From Pseudomonadota bacterium (GTDB lineage: Bacteria > Desulfobacterota > Desulfobacteria > Desulfobacterales > Desulfobacteraceae), in the NCBI GenBank assembly GCA_018816605.1, contig JAHIVS010000181.1, positions 1-25,608 on the forward strand: a stretch of DNA of 25,608 nt, in the 5' to 3' direction. How positions within the stretch are numbered: the first letter of the stretch is position 1; every line of letters begins with the position of its first letter. Shown piece by piece: positions 2,603 to 25,276 of this stretch. Made by a program: the position numbers and the translations under genes. The notes beneath the pieces were generated by a model. That model had not been told where the DNA came from, did not search any database, and worked only from the letters and a program-made list of their open reading frames with translations.

Positions 2603-3057
2603 TTTTTCCTCCCGGGTGCTGTTCTAAAGGTCAATTGTGATCCACTGTGCACAACTTGAGTATGCAGAAGTCGCTCGGTCCTGGAACTCCAAAAATCAGT
2701 TCAACATAGCCCTGTTCCGGCAAACCCTGAAACAAAGTCTGTTGGTCTCTCTACCGAATAGTGGTCGATATGTCAATCACCATCCAAAAAAATAATTCTC
2801 CTGTTTTCACCCCTGGCAACCACCCCATTTTTTTAAGAAAATCATTTCCCGGTCACTGACCGTAGGTATCCATCTGCCTTTTTATGGATTAAATAATAAA
2901 AGAACCGATTTTTATTTTCCTGGGAACTTGCAGGAAGGGGTCAGGCTTTTTTCATTGTGGTTTTTATCACTATTTCATTGTCAGATTGGACAAAACGCCA
3001 TAAAGAAAGCCTGACCCCGTTTGAATGGATAAGGATACAACTGCTGGCCAAAGCCGA
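2603..3057. other. 455-nt non-coding gap
   Basis: No convincing gene is seen on either strand. It holds the upstream region of the minus-strand transporter (GGAGG site close to its ATG), an AT-rich stretch at 2760-2920, and the inverted-repeat element at 2937-3018 just downstream of the universal stress protein gene. No tRNA-like or riboswitch-like fold was recognised. Confidence 0.6.
2937..3018. repeat. 82-nt MITE/REP-like element with 17-nt terminal inverted repeats
   Basis: The left end GGGGTCAGGCTTTTTTC starts at 2937 and the right end AAAGAAAGCCTGACCCC finishes at 3018. The right arm reversed reads GGGGTCAGGCTTTCTTT, matching the left at 15 of 17 positions. The 48-nt centre is AT-rich and has no coding capacity. 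GGGGTCAGGC-type ends recur, as I remember them, in short palindromic elements mobilised by REP-associated (IS200-like) transposases, but no such gene lies in this window. The gap between the arms makes a simple terminator unlikely. Confidence 0.6.
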
Positions 3058-3483
3058 TCACTTAACGATGAACACAGGGCATTCCGATTTATGAAGCACC
3101 TGGTGGGCAACGCTGCCCAGAAACAATCCCTCGAAATTAGAGACACCCCGTGATCCCATGACGATCAAATCCATCTTCTCTTGTCTGACAAGATCGGAAA
3201 TCGTACTTCCCGGAAGGCCTTCCAATATCCGCACTTCATAGGCCACCCTGCTTTTTTCCAGAAGGATTTCAAAGGGTTTTACCAGCTCTTCCGATGTTTC
3301 CATGATTTCATCAATTGCCTGTTGGAAATAGGGTTCTGACAATACCACGGGAAAACGGCTGTGGCAGTGTAAAAGAACAATCTTTGACTTAAATTGTTTT
3401 GCCAGCTCAATGGCAGCCAGAGTTGAATTCAACGAGTGTTTTGACCCGTCAACCGGGTTTAATATTTTTTCAAACTTCATCAC
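3058..3483 (-). CDS. Universal stress protein, UspA family
   Basis: A 141-residue single-domain Usp protein, the normal family length. The N-terminal strand FEKILNPVDGSKHS and the C-terminal ATP-binding motif G-2x-G-9x-G-S are present: GSRG at 110-113, then GS at 123-124, ending in SECPVFIV. It is therefore likely to be of the ATP-binding type. These cytosolic dimers help survival under stress and starvation. Two consecutive ATGs begin the frame; a G-rich ribosome site (AAAGGGGG) sits 4-10 nt upstream. It is monocistronic, divergent from the CheX-HTH gene with a 273-nt shared upstream region in which no clear promoter was resolved. Confidence 0.93.
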   Translation of the reverse strand: MMKFEKILNPVDGSKHSLNSTLAAIELAKQFKSKIVLLHCHSRFPVVLSEPYFQQAIDEIMETSEELVKPFEILLEKSRVAYEVRILEGLPGSTISDLVRQEKMDLIVMGSRGVSNFEGLFLGSVAHQVLHKSECPVFIVK

Positions 3484-3756
3484 GCCCCCTTTCCGGCCTG
3501 GACATTAACCGGATCTTAATGGATTGACACCCTCCTTTTGAAACAACCGCTTCTAAACCGAGCGGACTTAAGGGTTCTTGTCAAAAAAACAATACATAAA
3601 ACCGGTCTTAAAAATGATCTGTTTGAAGATAGGGACATTATACCTCTTCCCGGAAAAGATTTAAATTACTTTCTTTAAAAAAATCCCGGGAAACCTTGTA
3701 AAACAGAGATACCAGGTCTATAATCCCGACTGATTTTTATGATTGTTAAGGATAAC

Positions 3757-4632
3757 ATGAACGTTAATTACATTAATCCCTTTATCAATGCATCCATTGA
3801 TGTCTTTAAAACCTTTGCAGGTGTCCTCTCCCTTCCGGGGCGCCCCCGTGTCAGAACCAAACCGGAAGCCGCCGGGGATATCAACGGTTTTATCAAGCTC
3901 AACGGACATGGAATCAACGGCTATTTTGTCATTCATTTTTCCGAGGGATTTTTGAATAAAATTCTTGTCACTTTATTTGACGGCCACACGACGGCCTCCC
4001 AGACAGAATTGTTTGACCTTGCCGGTGAGCTGACCAACATGATCACAGGTGCTGCCAAGGCAGAATTGTCAAAAAAGGGATTTTTCTTTGATGTGGCCGT
4101 TCCCATGATCAGCCATACCACTCCCCAAATTCCGTCTGACCTCAAAAACAACCCTGTTATCATTGTCCCCTTTGAAACACGGGCCGGACAATTTAATATC
4201 GAAGCGTCCATACGGACCATTGAAGAAGACCTTGCCAAGGATACCATGCCGGAGGTTTTACCTCCCCTTGGATACACCTCGGTCGAGCTGTTTGCAAAGA
4301 AAACAAAAATTGATCCCATCAAAATACGGCGATTTCTTAAAACCGGTTTCCTTGTCGGGACAAAAATCAGCAACCGCCAATGGCATATTCCTGAATCAGA
4401 GTTTGAAAAAATCCTGGGTTCCCAGAAAACGCCTTCCGACAAGGCCAAAACAACACCCAATAAACTGCCTGAAAACACCATCGGCATAGAGGATTTTTCC
4501 AAACTTTCGGGCCTGTCTTCTGCAAAAATCAAAAGTTTTCTTCGGACCGGATTTCTGAAAGGGAGCCTGGACGCCAGCAATACCTGGAAGATCGCCCAGG
4601 ACGAGATATCAAAGTTTAAAAAAAAGTTCTGA
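3757..4632 (+). CDS. CheX-like domain fused to two tandem helix-turn-helix domains
   Basis: A 291-residue protein. Residues about 1-150 resemble CheX: an NPFINASIDVF start, then GELTNMITGAAK, where E91 and N94 form the ExxN pattern that CheC/CheX phosphatases use on phospho-CheY. The C-terminus carries two homologous units of about 49 residues, at 173-221 and 243-291. Both contain KI-(R/K)-x-FL-(K/R)-TGFL followed by an aromatic (QWHI or TWKI) strand, like excisionase/MerR-type winged helices. ATG 3757 is chosen over an ATG 18 nt earlier because AAGGA lies 6 nt before it and CheX proteins start this way. No che genes are adjacent. The rubrerythrin-like gene follows after 45 nt and could be co-transcribed. 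DNA binding and phosphatase activity are both inferred from motifs only. Confidence 0.75.
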   Translation: MNVNYINPFINASIDVFKTFAGVLSLPGRPRVRTKPEAAGDINGFIKLNGHGINGYFVIHFSEGFLNKILVTLFDGHTTASQTELFDLAGELTNMITGAAKAELSKKGFFFDVAVPMISHTTPQIPSDLKNNPVIIVPFETRAGQFNIEASIRTIEEDLAKDTMPEVLPPLGYTSVELFAKKTKIDPIKIRRFLKTGFLVGTKISNRQWHIPESEFEKILGSQKTPSDKAKTTPNKLPENTIGIEDFSKLSGLSSAKIKSFLRTGFLKGSLDASNTWKIAQDEISKFKKKF

Positions 4633-18705: not shown

Positions 18706-19212
18706 ATGATTTCACAAAAATTAGAAGAAGCCATCAACCACCAGATCAACCGCGAACTATTTTCAGATTATTACTATCTTTCCATGGCGGCCTATTTCAG
18801 CGCCACGGGGTTAAGCGGGTTTGAAAATTTTTTCCTGGTCCAGGTGGAGGAAGAAAGGGCCCATGCAATGAAAATGTACCGGTTTCTCAATGAGCGGGGC
18901 GGCCGGGTTCTTCTCAAGGAGATCGAAGCCCCCAAGACTGAGTTTTCCTCCCCCCTGGAGGTTTTTGAACTGGCATATGCACACGAAAAACTGGTCTCGG
19001 GCCTGATCAACGACATCATGGACCTGGCCATCCAGGAAAACGACCATGCCGCCAGAAGGCATTTTGACTGGTTTGTGGAAGAGCAGGTGGAAGAAGAAGC
19101 CACCATGGAAGCCATTCTCAACAAGCTCAAACTGGTAAAAGGAGAAGGCCATGGCCTGCTCATGCTGGACAGTGAATTGGCCCAGCGGGTATTTACCCCC
19201 CCTGTAAATTAG
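18706..19212 (+). CDS. ftnA: Bacterial non-heme ferritin (FtnA type)
   Basis: A 168-residue ferritin of normal length. The ferroxidase-centre residues are all visible: E17 (NRELFSDYYY), E50 and H53 (EEERAHAM), E94 (AHEKL), Q127 and E130 (EEQVEEE). The protein would assemble into a 24-mer shell that oxidises and stores iron in the cytoplasm. A strong AAAGGAG site precedes the ATG. The stop is only 11 nt before the aminotransferase start, so the two are probably co-transcribed, although no functional link is obvious. This is the second diiron four-helix protein in the window, after the rubrerythrin-like protein at 4678. Confidence 0.95.
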   Translation: MISQKLEEAINHQINRELFSDYYYLSMAAYFSATGLSGFENFFLVQVEEERAHAMKMYRFLNERGGRVLLKEIEAPKTEFSSPLEVFELAYAHEKLVSGLINDIMDLAIQENDHAARRHFDWFVEEQVEEEATMEAILNKLKLVKGEGHGLLMLDSELAQRVFTPPVN

Positions 19213-19223
19213 AGGAAGTCATC

Positions 19224-20072
19224 ATGGATGTCTATTATATTGACGGTGAATTTGTCGATGATGAAAAGGCTGTGGTTTCTGCAAAAGACATCACGGTATT
19301 GAGGGGGTATGGGGTGTTTGATTTTTTAATCACCTATAACAAACGCCCTTTTTTTGTTGAAGAGCATGTGGCCCGCCTGGAGAACTCGGCCAGACAAATC
19401 GGCCTGGTCCTCGGGCACACCCATGAAGAAATCTGCAAAATTGTGGTCCGGACCATCCAAAAGAACCCCCATCATACGGAATCCAATATCCGGATCATTT
19501 ACACGGGGGGAATCAGTCCGGATGGGGTTACCCCCCAGGGCAACGGAATTCTCATGGTCATGGTGACCCCGAAATTTCAATTGCCGGCATGGTGGTACAC
19601 AGAGGGTACCAAAATCATCACCGTTGATATGGAGCGGTTCATCCCGACATCCAAAACGACCAACTATCTGTCTGCCGTTTTTGCCCTGCAAAAGGCCCAC
19701 AAAACCGGTGCTGTGGAAGCCATTTACAAAGACCGGAAAAACCGATTATTGGAAGGCACCACCACCAATCTTTTCTGCTTTAAAGGCGATCGGCTGATCA
19801 CCCCGCCCGACTCCATCCTGCCGGGAGTCACCCGGCGGGTGGTTCTGGACCTGACAAAGGATCGGTATCAACTTCAATTGCGCCATGTGGCTGCCGATGA
19901 ATTAAACCAGATGGACGAGATCTTTATCACCGCCTCAAATAAAGAAATCGTTCCCGTCATCCAGGTGGACGACCTAACAATAGGCACCGGAAAACCCGGC
20001 GAAAAAACCGCCCATGTGATGGCATTGTTTAAAGCATATACCCAGGCCTATGGACAAGGTGAAATTCTCTGA
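19224..20072 (+). CDS. Class IV PLP aminotransferase (branched-chain or D-amino-acid type)
   Basis: A 282-residue fold-type IV enzyme. The PLP lysine is K144 in IPTSKTTNYLSA, the cofactor-nitrogen Glu is E177 in LLEGTTTNLF, and the PLP-phosphate region is LPGVTRRVVLDL (199-210). EIFITASNKEIVPVIQVD is the usual C-terminal signature. The length fits both D-amino-acid transaminase (about 285) and short branched-chain transaminases (about 300). The neighbouring racemases and ligase make a D-amino-acid role attractive, but RGYGVFDFLITYNKRPFFVEEH near the N-terminus also fits IlvE. A GAGGAAG ribosome site is present. Its stop overlaps the next start by 1 nt (TGATG), showing translational coupling to the alanine racemase. 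Confidence 0.9.
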   Translation: MDVYYIDGEFVDDEKAVVSAKDITVLRGYGVFDFLITYNKRPFFVEEHVARLENSARQIGLVLGHTHEEICKIVVRTIQKNPHHTESNIRIIYTGGISPDGVTPQGNGILMVMVTPKFQLPAWWYTEGTKIITVDMERFIPTSKTTNYLSAVFALQKAHKTGAVEAIYKDRKNRLLEGTTTNLFCFKGDRLITPPDSILPGVTRRVVLDLTKDRYQLQLRHVAADELNQMDEIFITASNKEIVPVIQVDDLTIGTGKPGEKTAHVMALFKAYTQAYGQGEIL

Positions 20073-21262
20073 TGCACCTGTCTTCTCCCCTGCTGCAACC
20101 CCAGACCCGGGTTCAGGTGGACCTTGGGGCATTGGCCCACAATGCCAGAAGTTTGAAAAACCTTCTGCCCGGGGACACCCTTCTCATGGCGGTGGTCAAG
20201 GCAAATGCCTATGGCCACGGCGCTGTCCAGACCGCCAGGACCGCACTTAAAAACGGAGCAGATTTTCTGGCGGTCGGACGGATATCCGAAGCCGTTGAAT
20301 TAAAGCAGGCAGGAATCCAGGCCCCCATCCTTTTGTTCGGGGACATTTTGCCCGATCAGATACCCTATGCTTGCGCCCATGATATCCGCATTACCCTGAC
20401 CAGCCTTGAAACAGCCAAACCCATTGCAGCAATGGCTGAAAAGCAGAAACTTGCCTTAAAAGTCCATATCAAGGTGGACACGGGAATGGGCCGGCTGGGA
20501 ATTCTCCATGACCAGCTTTTAAGCCCCAAAACCCTGGATGAAGCCCCCTGGAAAAGTCTTGATGAAATACTGGCCATCCACAGCTTAAAAGGACTGGCCA
20601 TTGAAGGGATCTACACCCATCTGGCCAATTCAGATGCCAGAGACAAAGCCCATGCCAAGGACCAGCTGGACCGGTTTAAGCTGCTGGTCAAACGGTTGGA
20701 GGAAAAAGGCATCACACCGGCCATCTGCCATGCCGCCAATTCGGCGGCAACCATCGACATGCCCGATTCCCACTTACAGATGGTCCGCACGGGCATTGCC
20801 CTTTACGGGCTCTGGCCCTCGGATGAGACAGACCACACCCGGATTACCCTGAAACCGGCCATGTCCATCCTTTCAAAAATCATCCATTTGAAAAGCGTGC
20901 CCAAAGGGTTTGCCGTCAGCTATGGGTCCACCCACCTCACAAAAACAGCCACCCGGATTGCCACGATCCCCATCGGATATGCAGACGGGTACAGCCGCCA
21001 ATTGTCAAACCAGGGCCAGATGCTGGTCAGGGGAATAAAGGCCTCCATTGTCGGCAGGGTGTGTATGGATTTTACCATGATCGACGTGGGCCACATCCCT
21101 GACTGCGTTCTGGGGGATGAAGTGGTGGTCATGGGCGCCCAGGGCAATGGAAAAATTACTGCCGATGATATTGCGGCAACCCTGGGGACCATCAATTATG
21201 AAATCACGGCATCCCTGACAACGCGGATGCCCATTTGCTACACTTCTCCAGGAGACCGGTAG
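20072..21262 (+). CDS. alr: Alanine racemase
   Basis: A 396-residue PLP enzyme of fold type III, somewhat longer than the typical 360-380. The PLP lysine is K43 in MAVVKANAYGHG. The second catalytic base is Y284 in VSYGSTH. Other signatures are KVDTGMGRLG (134-143), IPIGYADGYSR and GRVCMDFTMIDV. It interconverts L- and D-alanine in the cytoplasm, normally to supply peptidoglycan. The start overlaps the aminotransferase stop by 1 nt, and the CapA-like gene begins 2 nt after its stop, so it is locked into this operon. It could be the cell's housekeeping enzyme or dedicated to the operon's product; the sequence cannot tell. Confidence 0.95.
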   Translation: MHLSSPLLQPQTRVQVDLGALAHNARSLKNLLPGDTLLMAVVKANAYGHGAVQTARTALKNGADFLAVGRISEAVELKQAGIQAPILLFGDILPDQIPYACAHDIRITLTSLETAKPIAAMAEKQKLALKVHIKVDTGMGRLGILHDQLLSPKTLDEAPWKSLDEILAIHSLKGLAIEGIYTHLANSDARDKAHAKDQLDRFKLLVKRLEEKGITPAICHAANSAATIDMPDSHLQMVRTGIALYGLWPSDETDHTRITLKPAMSILSKIIHLKSVPKGFAVSYGSTHLTKTATRIATIPIGYADGYSRQLSNQGQMLVRGIKASIVGRVCMDFTMIDVGHIPDCVLGDEVVVMGAQGNGKITADDIAATLGTINYEITASLTTRMPICYTSPGDR

Positions 21263-21263
21263 A

Positions 21264-22487
21264 ATGCTCTGTGCTTCTTCCTTTAACTGGGAGAATGGCT
21301 GCTGGTCATCGGGAAACCCTCCTTTGGCCACCCTGTGCGTTGCAGGGGACTGGGCCCCCATCCGCCTCTTTAAACCCATCATTGAAACAAATCCAGCGTC
21401 CCTTTACGGAGATCTTTTGCCCGTGATTCGGTCAACGGATCTGTGTGTGGTCAATCTGGAAGCCCCCTTGAGCGACCGGGGCAGCCCGGTTGTCAAAAGC
21501 GGGGCGGTGTTCAAGGGCGAATCCCGGCATATCCAAGGATTGACGGCCCTTCCTGTTGATGCCGTCACCCTGGCCAATAACCATGTGTTTGACTTTGGTC
21601 CGGCCGCCTTCCAGGACACCCTTGGCCTCCTGGAAAAGAACAACATCAAATGGACGGGTGCGGGCATGTCCATTGAAGAAGCCGAAAAACCCATGATCCT
21701 TACGGCCAAGGGCATCACCATTGCCATTGTCAATTTTTCCGAAGGCGAAGATCTGACCGCCGCAGGCAAAGGCCCCGGTGTCATGGGCTGGGAAATTCCC
21801 CGGATTGAGGCCCAGATTCAGACCTTAAAAAAAGAGGTGGACCAGGTGGTTGTCATTGCCCATTGCGGCCTTGAATATATTCCCTTTGCCCCGCCCTATG
21901 TGATGGATGCCTTTATAAAAATGGCTGAGGCCGGGGCTAATGCGGTGATAGGTCACCACCCCCATGTCCCCCAGGGCATTAAATTTCACAGGGGGGTGCC
22001 CATCTGCTGCAGCCTGGGCAATTTTGTCTTTTACCAGGACACGGACCTATATTTCCGCAAACTTGGCTATCTTGTAAAACTGGGCCTGACACGTGACGCG
22101 CTCGTCTCCCTTGACCTTGTTCCCTACCAGATCCGGGATCAGGGACTTTCTGCCTTAAAAGGAGAGGATCAAGACACTTTTTTCACCCGGTTCAAAGAGA
22201 TATCCCTTCCCCTGGACACCCCCCAGGGAATTGACGATGCCTGGAACGGATTCCTCCATTATTACGGCCGGAAGGGATTCAAGAGTGAACTGGCCTGGAT
22301 CATGGAAACCATGGAGTCCCATCCCCAAAAGGGGGCGGCCATGTTCCGGAACCGGCTCACCTGCCCCCAGCATTTTTACCATTGGCGAGACATGATGACC
22401 CGCATGGTGACAGGGGAAATTGAAACCTCTTTGACCTGGGCCCGGAACCTTGCCGAAGAATGGCTCACCCGGAAAAAACTGGATTGA
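21264..22487 (+). CDS. CapA-family (poly-gamma-glutamate synthesis-type) metallophosphatase-like protein, apparently cytosolic
   Basis: A 407-residue protein with the PGA_cap pattern: VAGDW (26-30), VVNLEAPL (62-69), LANNHVFDFG (103-112), HCGLE (200-204), GHHPHVPQG (230-238) and SLGNFVF (250-256). These supply the metal-binding Asp, Asn and His of a calcineurin-like fold. Classic CapA/PgsA proteins are membrane-anchored; here there is no signal peptide or membrane helix, so cytosolic action is likely. The C-terminal 120 residues are helical and not recognised. It starts 2 nt after alr. Its role in an amide-forming pathway is unknown; some CapA-like proteins (as recalled) act alongside ATP-grasp ligases. 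Confidence 0.85.
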   Translation: MLCASSFNWENGCWSSGNPPLATLCVAGDWAPIRLFKPIIETNPASLYGDLLPVIRSTDLCVVNLEAPLSDRGSPVVKSGAVFKGESRHIQGLTALPVDAVTLANNHVFDFGPAAFQDTLGLLEKNNIKWTGAGMSIEEAEKPMILTAKGITIAIVNFSEGEDLTAAGKGPGVMGWEIPRIEAQIQTLKKEVDQVVVIAHCGLEYIPFAPPYVMDAFIKMAEAGANAVIGHHPHVPQGIKFHRGVPICCSLGNFVFYQDTDLYFRKLGYLVKLGLTRDALVSLDLVPYQIRDQGLSALKGEDQDTFFTRFKEISLPLDTPQGIDDAWNGFLHYYGRKGFKSELAWIMETMESHPQKGAAMFRNRLTCPQHFYHWRDMMTRMVTGEIETSLTWARNLAEEWLTRKKLD

Positions 22488-22506
22488 AACCCATGGGACT
22501 TTGTGG

Positions 22507-23406
22507 ATGAATAAAACCAAAACAACCCTCCTGGTAACCGACTCGGGCCTTGGGGGCCTGTCTGTTTTTGCCGATATCGCCGGACGAATGGAAAAAAATG
22601 CGCCCGTTGAACAGATCTCCCTGGTTTATTTTAATGCATGGCCATTTGAGGACAAAGGGTATAATCATCTGCCGGACATGGCGGAAAAGGCAATGGTGTT
22701 CAATAACGCCATGGAAGCCATGGCAGAATTTTCCCCCGATGCCATCCTCATTGCCTGCAACACCCTGTCGGTGATCTATCCGTTCACCCCATTTTCCCGC
22801 ACCGGGCAGATCCGGGTAACCGGCATTGTGGATCACGGGGTTGACCTCATTTATGACCATCTGGTGCAAACCCCTGACAGCCGGGTGGTCATCTTCGCAA
22901 CCCCCACCACCATTGGGGAACAAACCCATGAAAAGGCCCTGGTGAACTTGGGGATAGCCCCTGGAAGAATCGTCACCCAGGGCTGTATCGACCTGGCAGG
23001 AAAAATTGAAAGGGATCCCTTCAGCCCGGATGTCTTTGGGATGATTGACGCCAATGCAAGGCAAGCCGCCTTAAAATTGGGACCCTCGGGAGGAAACATT
23101 TTTGCCGCCCTTTGCTGCACCCATTTCGGCTATTGCAGCCAGGGGTTTGCCTCAGCCCTGGAAAAGCATACCCGAAACAAAATTTTTATCTTAAATCCCA
23201 ATATTCGGATGGCCCAGGCGGTTTTTGACAAACATTCCGGGTCCGGATTTGCCTGTCCTGAAATTACCATGAAAATCGTGTCACGGGTATGCTGGGACGA
23301 GGCGCGCATCAATTCCTATGAAAAACTGCTCAAACCCGTATCCCCCCGGACCGTAGATGCACTGAAACGCTACACCTGGGACAAAGACTTGTTCCAGGTT
23401 ACCTGA
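22507..23406 (+). CDS. Glutamate racemase-like protein (Asp/Glu racemase superfamily)
   Basis: A 299-residue protein retaining the cofactor-independent racemase catalytic set: D12-S13 in TDSGLGGLSV, C84 in IACNTLS, and C204-T-H206 in CCTHFGY. The two cysteines would act as acid and base on either face of the substrate carbon. It departs from MurI in the substrate loop: the usual YF-x-DT-x-x-x-PYG is replaced by YFNAWPFEDKGYNHLPD (41-57), and the C-terminus after C204 differs, so it may act on another amino acid. ATG 22507 is preferred because an upstream in-frame ATG at 22450 lies inside the CapA-like gene; the ribosome site is weak. The gap to capA is 19 nt. Confidence 0.85.
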   Translation: MNKTKTTLLVTDSGLGGLSVFADIAGRMEKNAPVEQISLVYFNAWPFEDKGYNHLPDMAEKAMVFNNAMEAMAEFSPDAILIACNTLSVIYPFTPFSRTGQIRVTGIVDHGVDLIYDHLVQTPDSRVVIFATPTTIGEQTHEKALVNLGIAPGRIVTQGCIDLAGKIERDPFSPDVFGMIDANARQAALKLGPSGGNIFAALCCTHFGYCSQGFASALEKHTRNKIFILNPNIRMAQAVFDKHSGSGFACPEITMKIVSRVCWDEARINSYEKLLKPVSPRTVDALKRYTWDKDLFQVT

Positions 23407-23440
23407 ACATTATTGCAAAGGAAAACCTATCAGGAGAAAC

Positions 23441-24430
23441 ATGAAAAAAATATTATTGATCACAGGACCGGCCGGAGATGCCCAGGGATGGGGCGATCTT
23501 TCCGTGACACAAGAAATGGCCCGGGCCATTGAAGCCTCGGGCAAGGCTGCAGAAATTGCCTTTGTTTCCACCATGGAGCAGTTTTATACCGCCATTGAAA
23601 CAAAGGGCTTTGATATTGCCTGGAGTGCCCTCTACCACATCTCCGGCAAGTCGGAAACCATCGGCATGGGCGAAGGCGATGAAAAATGGCTGGCCGATAT
23701 ACTGGACACCCGCAGCATCCCCTATATCGGCCCCAATGCCGCCACCATGAAGGCCTTGATTCACAAGACCGCCACCCACAAAATCATGCATGCCCATGGG
23801 GTGCCCGTTCCCTATCACCACCAGATCGAGGCGGGAGGCGCCCTGCCCGACATCCCTTTTCCGGCCTTTGTAAAACCCAGTTATGAATCCAGATCCGTGG
23901 GCATCAGCGACAACAGCGTGGTGGAAAACCGATCTGACCTGGAAAAACAGGTGGCCTTCATCCACAAACAGTTTGACCAGCCGGCACTGGTGGAAGAATA
24001 CCTGCCGGGCCAGGAATATACCGTCCTCATGCTGGGCAATGGAGAACTTCAAAAATTTCTTCCCGGAAGAGTGGAGGTGAATAACGCCTTATTTGGAAAA
24101 TATCCCATTTTAAGGGCAGAACTGCGCGGGGTGGGGGCCACCAAAATCAAGCCCGCAGGCCGTTATGCAGAAGAGGCCATTGCGGTGACCCGAAAGGCCA
24201 TGGAAGCGCTTAAATGCCTGGACCATGTCAGGACAGACCTGCGCCTGGATGGAAAGGGAAACCTGAAAATCATAGAGGTCAATGGTATTCCGGGATTAAA
24301 ACCCGTAAAAAGCTGGAGTCCCCAGATGCTTACCCTGCACCACCCTTCGACCCAAGGCCCCATGGAAGACTATCGACAGCTCATTGACCTTATTGTCACC
24401 TCGGCACTGACCCGGTACAATCTGATCTGA
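23441..24430 (+). CDS. ATP-grasp ligase related to D-alanine-D-alanine ligase, non-canonical
   Basis: A 329-residue ATP-grasp protein. FPAFVKPSYESRSVGI (140-155) is the ATP lysine and glycine-loop region, LVEEYLPGQEYTVLML (183-198) follows, HVRTDLRLD (262-270) gives a metal-binding Asp, and IIEVNGIPGLKP (277-288) matches Ddl's E-(I/V)-N-T-x-PG-(M/F)-T metal-site motif with changes. The N-terminal GGxSxEHxVS of true Ddl enzymes, which contacts the first D-Ala, is replaced by GPAGDAQGWGDLSV (9-22), and the GSSxGV loop is ESRSVGI. It probably joins amino acids through an acyl-phosphate but not simply D-Ala to D-Ala. A CAGGAGA site precedes the ATG, 34 nt after the racemase-like gene. It is the last gene of the run. 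Confidence 0.85.
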   Translation: MKKILLITGPAGDAQGWGDLSVTQEMARAIEASGKAAEIAFVSTMEQFYTAIETKGFDIAWSALYHISGKSETIGMGEGDEKWLADILDTRSIPYIGPNAATMKALIHKTATHKIMHAHGVPVPYHHQIEAGGALPDIPFPAFVKPSYESRSVGISDNSVVENRSDLEKQVAFIHKQFDQPALVEEYLPGQEYTVLMLGNGELQKFLPGRVEVNNALFGKYPILRAELRGVGATKIKPAGRYAEEAIAVTRKAMEALKCLDHVRTDLRLDGKGNLKIIEVNGIPGLKPVKSWSPQMLTLHHPSTQGPMEDYRQLIDLIVTSALTRYNLI

Positions 24431-24432
24431 GA

Positions 24433-24464
24433 AAAAGGGGACGCAGATTTTCTTTTTACGTCCC
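24433..24464 (-). terminator. Intrinsic terminator of the minus-strand gene at 24464
   Basis: Read on the minus strand, GGGACG (24464-24459) pairs with CGTCCC (24443-24438) around a 15-nt loop, and CTTTTT follows. The first base overlaps the stop codon of the minus-strand gene. The GGGGACGCAGATTTT wording resembles dispersed palindromes seen in many genomes, so it may have arrived as a repeat. It also separates the convergent ligase gene. Confidence 0.7.
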
Positions 24465-25276
24465 TAAACAAAATCGTTTAAGCTTGTTTTAAAGGCCGTT
24501 TTAAGCATATCGTTGATGACCTGGTCCAGCTGTTCTCCCGCACTCTTCAGGGCTTCATAGGCCGGGGTCTTGGTTTCATCGGCATCTTCCTGGTTTTTCA
24601 GGAGCTGGTCAAACAATGCCGCCAGCGGGTGCTGGGCTTTTGCCAGCAGTTTTTCGTCCTGTTTTTCCAAAAATCGGGCCATCTGGTCCACCAGAGAAGC
24701 CACCTGCTTGGCGCCATCAAGAATACCTGTATCCCGCGCTGAACTCGGCAATCTCCCATGGGAGACCGAACTTGTTTCCTGGCTGACCGCATAGGACCGC
24801 TGATAGGAAATGTCGGCTGAATACATGGAGACAGAATCATAGCTGCCCATGGACATGGCTTTTTCCATGGCCTTCCCCATATCCCCCCGGACCATTTCAC
24901 CGGCGATTGTGTCCACACCTTTTACAATGGCCTCGATGTCTGCAAGCTCCTGCTCGTTTAAATCCCCTTGAACGGAAAAGGAAAAACGCTCTCCAGTGGT
25001 CAGGGTGATCTCCCGGATGTGCCGGTTCATCTGGGCGCTTCCGGAATCACTCCGAATCTGTCCCCTGCTCGTGTATTCAAAGGCATTGAGTTCTGAAAAA
25101 CTTTTGGATGACAGCGTGACAACGTCCCCCTCCCGGGTCTTTATGGTCAGGCCGGTATCAAGGCTTTCATGGGCATTGGCGGACATTTTCCTTAAATTTC
25201 CTGAAAACTGGGCATTCTGAAGATTGCCCCGCCCGCCGGACAGCCCTGTGGATGAAGTGTCTGGTATGGTGCTCAT
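24464..25276 (-). CDS. Unrecognised soluble protein, DUF5610-like at best
   Basis: A 270-residue hydrophilic protein without signal peptide or membrane helix. The N-terminal 50 residues are Ser/Gly/Asn-rich and probably disordered. Residues about 45-100 look beta-rich (TIKTREGDVVTLSSKS, REITLTTGERFSFSVQG). Residues about 105-150 are helical with GEMVRGDMGKAMEKAMSM. A serine- and tyrosine-rich stretch follows, then a charged helical C-terminus from about 185. The strand-then-helix centre with an amphipathic 'G-D-x-x-x-A-x-x-K-A' stretch recalls DUF5610-type proteins, but I cannot assign it firmly. The start has a GGAGA site 7-8 nt upstream. It is convergent with the ligase gene. Confidence 0.75.
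   Translation of the reverse strand: MSTIPDTSSTGLSGGRGNLQNAQFSGNLRKMSANAHESLDTGLTIKTREGDVVTLSSKSFSELNAFEYTSRGQIRSDSGSAQMNRHIREITLTTGERFSFSVQGDLNEQELADIEAIVKGVDTIAGEMVRGDMGKAMEKAMSMGSYDSVSMYSADISYQRSYAVSQETSSVSHGRLPSSARDTGILDGAKQVASLVDQMARFLEKQDEKLLAKAQHPLAALFDQLLKNQEDADETKTPAYEALKSAGEQLDQVINDMLKTAFKTSLNDFV

Follow-up and report, generated by a model that had tools for sequence, protein, structure and literature searches.

Glutamate racemase (MurI) works with two cysteines as its acid/base residues. Ligases adjoin amide hydrolases in the neighbourhoods of ATP-grasp amidoligases with linked hydrolases, and Puu-type catabolism of gamma-glutamylated amines likewise includes a C26 gamma-glutamyl hydrolase. 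D-alanine-D-alanine ligase (Ddl) is an ATP-grasp enzyme in which Ser150 and Tyr216 have a role in the donor site (excerpt of PMC7691350). The PGA_cap domain is shared by the CapA-type protein of the poly-gamma-glutamate synthase CapBCA and by the peptide epimerase MslH, whose active-site residues are given in an excerpt of PMC10406935. Relatives of these three families are encoded side by side in the DNA analysed here, a stretch of 25,608 nucleotides from a member of the Desulfobacteraceae (contig JAHIVS010000181.1; hereafter the window), where they are the last three of five same-strand genes: a class IV aminotransferase (AT4), an alanine racemase (Alr), a CapA-like protein, a MurI-like racemase (MurIL) and a Ddl-like ligase (DdlL). 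The initial annotation had correctly given their spacings (-1, 1, 19 and 34 nt) and had proposed a dedicated five-gene pathway with two racemases. Our own reading, to which we give a little less than an even chance, is that the last three genes form an accessory metabolic module for making an amide of an acidic amino acid, with D-glutamate or something related to it as the likeliest candidate, and usually for breaking this amide as well.

A profile scan of genome contigs returned 401 DdlL relatives, of which the best 80 loci were analysed, with the core genes located by tblastn. CapA, MurIL and DdlL were all present in 64/80 loci, and the gene order is kept beyond a single strain. Forty-eight of these 64 loci carried CapA-MurIL-DdlL on one strand, 14 had CapA on the opposite strand and two had CapA downstream; MurIL and DdlL shared a strand in 64/64, with a gap of no more than 150 nt in 59. 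AT4 and Alr were each found in only 18/80 loci, and the two together, as well as the complete five-gene set, in 15/80. The conserved unit is therefore three genes, not five, and the dedicated five-gene pathway was not upheld. Going by their record titles, the loci belonged to the Desulfobacterales and other deltaproteobacteria, Lentisphaerae (Lentisphaerota), Acidobacteria and Aminicenantes, together with one Spirochaetes bin. Most loci came from metagenome bins; the sources also included two strains with names, Desulfocicer vacuolatum DSM 3385 and Desulfosarcina alkanivorans PL12. A second module copy, with the aminotransferase and without alr, was seen in two genomes (L018 and L021, from the same isolates as L004 and L002, respectively). 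Fitting this second copy, genome G002 had two MurIL genes.

Co-occurrence of the three genes persisted where their linkage was broken. MurIL was detected in 22/22 genomes carrying DdlL and in 11/16 genomes whose DdlL locus had no intact MurIL; one genome (G009) belongs to both sets, giving 32/37 distinct genomes. In each of the five genomes with no MurIL match, no more than 2.1 kb lay between DdlL and an end of its contig. CapA and MurIL were adjacent to each other, away from the DdlL locus, in 9/16 genomes; the separation was clear from the flanks in eight of these nine and possibly reflects a contig break in the other (G392). This argues for a joint function of CapA, MurIL and DdlL and against a chance linkage. 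The whole core was also present in five of six further genomes (G131, G157, G178, G226, G333 and G343). The distance matrices of the three proteins were correlated (r 0.90 to 0.91; 60 loci plus the window; 0/999 permutations as high), which agrees with joint inheritance but is given little weight because common descent alone would also produce it. In some Lentisphaeria (L047:425-1675 and L049:8668-9918), DdlL directly followed a phosphoglycerate kinase gene, with CapA and MurIL elsewhere.

DdlL shares the ATP-grasp domain (Dala_Dala_lig_C) and predicted fold of Ddl, and its ATP-grasp residues Arg264, Asp266, Glu279 and Asn281 were kept in 80/81 rows, the remaining row being incomplete. However, it scored below every NCBIfam cut-off (TIGR01205, 69.5 bits; cut-off 245.65), and the donor-site Ser150 of Ddl was replaced by arginine (Arg151) in 81/81 sequences, a correspondence on which three alignments (phmmer, MAFFT and hhalign) agreed. 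Since the donor-subsite serine of Ddl is here an invariant arginine, the donor of DdlL is probably anionic. Gln15 and Arg225 were placed at Ddl Glu15 and Tyr216 by MAFFT alone, hhalign and phmmer placing these loops otherwise. Plasmid relatives were considered and rejected: 466 records matched DdlL, all with <60% identity, and among the matches listed these were other ATP-grasp ligases.

The ligase is additional to the canonical enzyme in nearly all of the module genomes searched. Using genomes of relatives of the window, canonical Ddl was found elsewhere in 21/22 module genomes. In the closest relative (G001, locus L001), whose DdlL is 95% identical to that of the window, both canonical Ddl (302 bits) and canonical MurI (212 bits) lay elsewhere, so that DdlL and MurIL are surplus in this genome, in agreement with the earlier proposal that they are distinct from the canonical pair. 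DdlL was also sparse among sampled genomes (1/59 in a phylum sample, 7/116 in an order sample and 6/194 in another phylum sample, centres included), which makes the module accessory. Alr, with both its N- and C-terminal domains present, behaved differently. An alr over the cut-off occurred in 22/22 module genomes, and in all six of these with a module that includes alr, the cluster copy was the only one over the cut-off (6/6). Alr in the window is thus very probably the housekeeping alanine racemase of the cell, and the second dedicated racemase falls away. Other Ddl genes unrelated to the module were seen in Acidobacteria and Aminicenantes (G010, G012, G013, G014 and G015), as an adjacent pair of further paralogs (~128 to 141 bits, below the Ddl cut-off). 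At G008:C150:5091-7421, a tandem pair of Ddl genes, scoring 255 and 245 bits, shared its contig with alr (3019-4116).

The predicted structure of MurIL matches glutamate racemases, with which it shares the fold, both catalytic cysteines and the neighbouring aspartate and histidine. The DSG, ACNT and CTH motifs were retained (67 rows), with C84 in 65/67 (two gaps), C204 in 66/67 (one gap) and H206 in 67/67. It differs from MurI in scoring far below the family cut-off, in its accessory distribution and in the PYG motif of canonical rows, which is not conserved and is replaced by a different loop.

The CapA-like protein shares the PGA_cap domain with MslH and other members of this family, and its metal-site motifs were conserved throughout an alignment of 65 rows wherever the row had no gap. 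By phmmer it matched MslH structures (8gq9, 64 bits). Six of the seven MslH active-site residues covered by the alignment (Glu44, Asn87, His88, Asp91, His259 and His295) were kept, whereas the seventh, His261, was an invariant glycine (65/65). Asp11 of MslH lies outside the alignment; a similar motif of the CapA-like family contains an aspartate. Further differences from MslH were a unique, conserved C-terminal KGAAMxRNR region and another gene context. Because six MslH residues are kept and His261 is glycine, neither a phosphatase nor an epimerase can be selected for this protein.

Amide hydrolases were common next to the core. Counting those on the same strand and no more than 350 nt away from one of the core genes, 45/80 loci had a hydrolase from one of five unrelated families. 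This included N-formylglutamate amidohydrolase (FGase, PF05013; 19 loci), M20 (10), peptidase C26 (10), the isochorismatase family (5) and a D-aminoacylase-like Amidohydro_3 protein alone (1); five of the ten C26 loci also had an Amidohydro_3 gene. Among PDB entries, the M20 protein matched HmrA and Xaa-Arg dipeptidase best, and the Amidohydro_3 protein matched enzymes of the D-aminoacylase and N-acyl-D-glutamate deacylase types. FGase accompanied the core in both Desulfobacterota and Lentisphaerae loci (L037 and L068), and it occurred in seven of the 22 module genomes, always beside DdlL. Substitution of one hydrolase family for another in this position would agree with a turnover step common to the loci. 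An in-frame stop was reported within some MurIL and FGase matches; judging from the alignment ends, these are thought to be the terminal stop of the gene itself, with the models of longer relatives running past it.

The analysis shows gene content, linkage and co-occurrence, predicted folds, catalytic-residue conservation and the extra-canonical status in the nearest relatives, which we read as a module for amide formation. In such a module, MurIL would use its two cysteines as acid and base to invert an acidic amino acid at the alpha-carbon. DdlL would use ATP to turn a carboxylate into an acyl phosphate and then couple it to an amine, the donor probably presenting a negative charge at the invariant arginine. 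The CapA-like metalloenzyme may be a phosphatase or a second epimerase whose substrate is either an intermediate or the product, and in most lineages the hydrolase beside the core would cut an amide of the same pathway. In the clade of the window, the upstream Alr and AT4 could provide D-alanine and, by transamination, D-glutamate. We infer every substrate, product and chemical step in this scheme; D-amino acids in the product, as first proposed from the sequence, are plausible.

Several points weigh against it. The D-configuration is one that we infer. With the PYG motif lost, the glutamate assignment rests on the relatives of MurIL and on hydrolase names, not on the pocket. AT4 scores did not separate the D-amino-acid from the branched-chain type, all being below their cut-offs (PRK08320, the best in NCBIfam, 184 bits, cut-off 363; TIGR01122 ilvE, 149, cut-off 246; TIGR01121 D-amino-acid transaminase, 143, cut-off 277); the best PDB match was 7p8o (150 bits). 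No hydrolase adjoins the core in the clade of the window, no module-type FGase was found in G001 or G002, and among the six further genomes, in which the flanks were only ~1.5 kb, two (L100 and L103) had a hydrolase beside the core. The hydrolase families were chosen after the neighbourhoods had been viewed, and closely related rows were counted repeatedly, so that the counts are not independent. Finally, in the order sample canonical MurI was over the cut-off in 2/7 genomes with DdlL versus 72/109 others, and four Lentisphaerota genomes (G009, G016, G018 and G019) gave no match to canonical MurI or to a second class IV aminotransferase. As many module genomes have no recognisable MurI, MurIL may supply D-glutamate in some of them. 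A fuller version of the amide reading, which we think unlikely, would have a multi-phylum module making and recycling an amide of an acidic D-amino acid, in which a Ddl has a charge-changed donor pocket, a MurI has left the cell wall, the CapA-like protein is a second case of epimerisation on the calcineurin-like fold and unrelated hydrolases (FGase, M20, C26 with D-aminoacylase, isochorismatase-type) are swapped for the same turnover step.

The hydrolases could also point to catabolic salvage, which we consider possible, if on the unlikely side. Here, the hydrolase would open a (D-)amino acid bearing an N-acyl or gamma-glutamyl group, whether imported or endogenous. MurIL would convert the released D-acid to the L-form, and DdlL and CapA would provide transient protection or priming, as happens in the catabolism of gamma-glutamylated amines. 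In line with this, the hydrolases beside the core include gamma-glutamyl hydrolase-like C26 and D-aminoacylase-like proteins, 13 loci had a TRAP-type permease gene and five had a gene for a substrate-binding NMT1_3 protein. The C26 protein of the Lentisphaerota module matches the partner known from Puu-type catabolism; the module differs in that its ligase is Ddl-like and it has a racemase. However, the ATP-consuming ligase and the PGA_cap enzyme are the constant elements and the hydrolase is the variable one, and no amine oxidase or dehydrogenase recurred among the listed neighbour clusters. Four loci (L009, L010, L016 and L024) had a gene for a fused TRAP-type permease and another for a universal stress protein near the module, with NMT1_3 in some.

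The scarcity of canonical MurI raises a further alternative, that MurIL is a divergent glutamate racemase providing D-glutamate for peptidoglycan where MurI is absent, the other two genes being linked for another reason. Only 6/22 module genomes had MurI over the cut-off (G001, G002, G008, G011, G017 and G020), two more having copies of 100 to 118 bits; the order sample runs in the predicted direction and the four Lentisphaerota genomes fit. However, MurIL and canonical MurI coexist in those six genomes, among them the sources of the top two matches to the window (G001 and G002), and G002 holds two MurIL genes besides its MurI. D-glutamate supply cannot be the sole role of MurIL where both are present. 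Moreover, counting MurI of at least 100 bits, the order sample changed to 4/7 versus 82/109, many genomes lacking DdlL also lacked MurI, and the tie to DdlL and CapA is left unexplained. We judge this alternative improbable. For MurIL as a universal substitute for MurI, the distribution of MurI gave a mixed picture.

Tailoring of a ribosomally synthesised peptide, with CapA as an MslH-like peptide epimerase and DdlL modifying the peptide, is very unlikely. The match to MslH and the six retained residues favour it; the invariant glycine at His261 does not, and no recurrent precursor was found in the listed neighbour clusters, where open reading frames of at least 90 amino acids were examined. 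That the core consists of ordinary housekeeping peptidoglycan genes can be given hardly any credence: Alr fits this description, but canonical Ddl and MurI lie elsewhere in the nearest relatives and DdlL is accessory, which for DdlL contradicts this reading outright. Poly-gamma-glutamate capsule synthesis, suggested by the PGA_cap domain of CapA, is just as improbable, as CapC (PF14102) was found in 6/22 module genomes, never sharing a contig with the module, and neither G001 nor G002 had it (CapC was searched, CapB was not). An anti-phage defence role was rejected, as 0/5 proteins matched a PADLOC model at E 0.001.

The coordinates of the window genes are given in the table below. For MurIL, the ATG start at 22507 was favoured over TTG at 22450. 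A promoter and terminator scan was uninformative, with counts close to shuffled expectation (6 vs 5.1 and 14 vs 12.1). A ferritin gene (18706-19212) ends 11 nt upstream of AT4; ferritin preceded the module in no other loci than L001, L002, L004, L005 and L065, the five closest ones from Desulfobacterales. On the minus strand, 24464-25276 encodes a 270-amino-acid protein with no Pfam or NCBIfam match, also present in five or six closely related loci.

Table. Location of the five genes and the DdlL donor-site codon within the window.
Feature	Position	Strand	Support
Class IV aminotransferase (AT4), D-amino-acid or branched-chain type	19224..20072	+	PF01063, 156 bits; accessory, 18/80 loci
Alanine racemase (Alr), very probably the housekeeping enzyme of the cell	20072..21262	+	TIGR00492, 374 bits (cut-off 168)
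Core gene 1, CapA-like PGA_cap metalloenzyme (calcineurin-like family)	21264..22487	+	PF09587, 190 bits
Core gene 2, MurI-like two-cysteine racemase (MurIL)	22507..23406	+	TIGR00067, 44 bits (cut-off 146.65); model match, conserved cysteines
Core gene 3, Ddl-fold ATP-grasp ligase (DdlL)	23441..24430	+	
DdlL Arg151 codon, aligned with donor-site Ser150 of Ddl (numbered as in E. coli DdlB)	23891..23893	+	

The enzyme families of the module are known. In the literature searched, at the level of titles and the beginnings of abstracts, we found no description of a MurI-like, a CapA-like and an ATP-grasp ligase protein in combination. We regard the module as an ATP-grasp ligase cluster that has a racemase and a hydrolase of its own. 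Existing sources name MurIL a glutamate racemase and DdlL a D-alanine-D-alanine ligase; if the amide reading is right, such genes should not be tallied as murein genes. What MurIL and DdlL act on becomes a direct biochemical question. If the amide reading is true, the module would represent a clean case of cell-wall enzymes recruited to another function, and a pathway of environmental and gut bacteria that has gone unrecognised because its enzymes bear the names of cell-wall and capsule genes.

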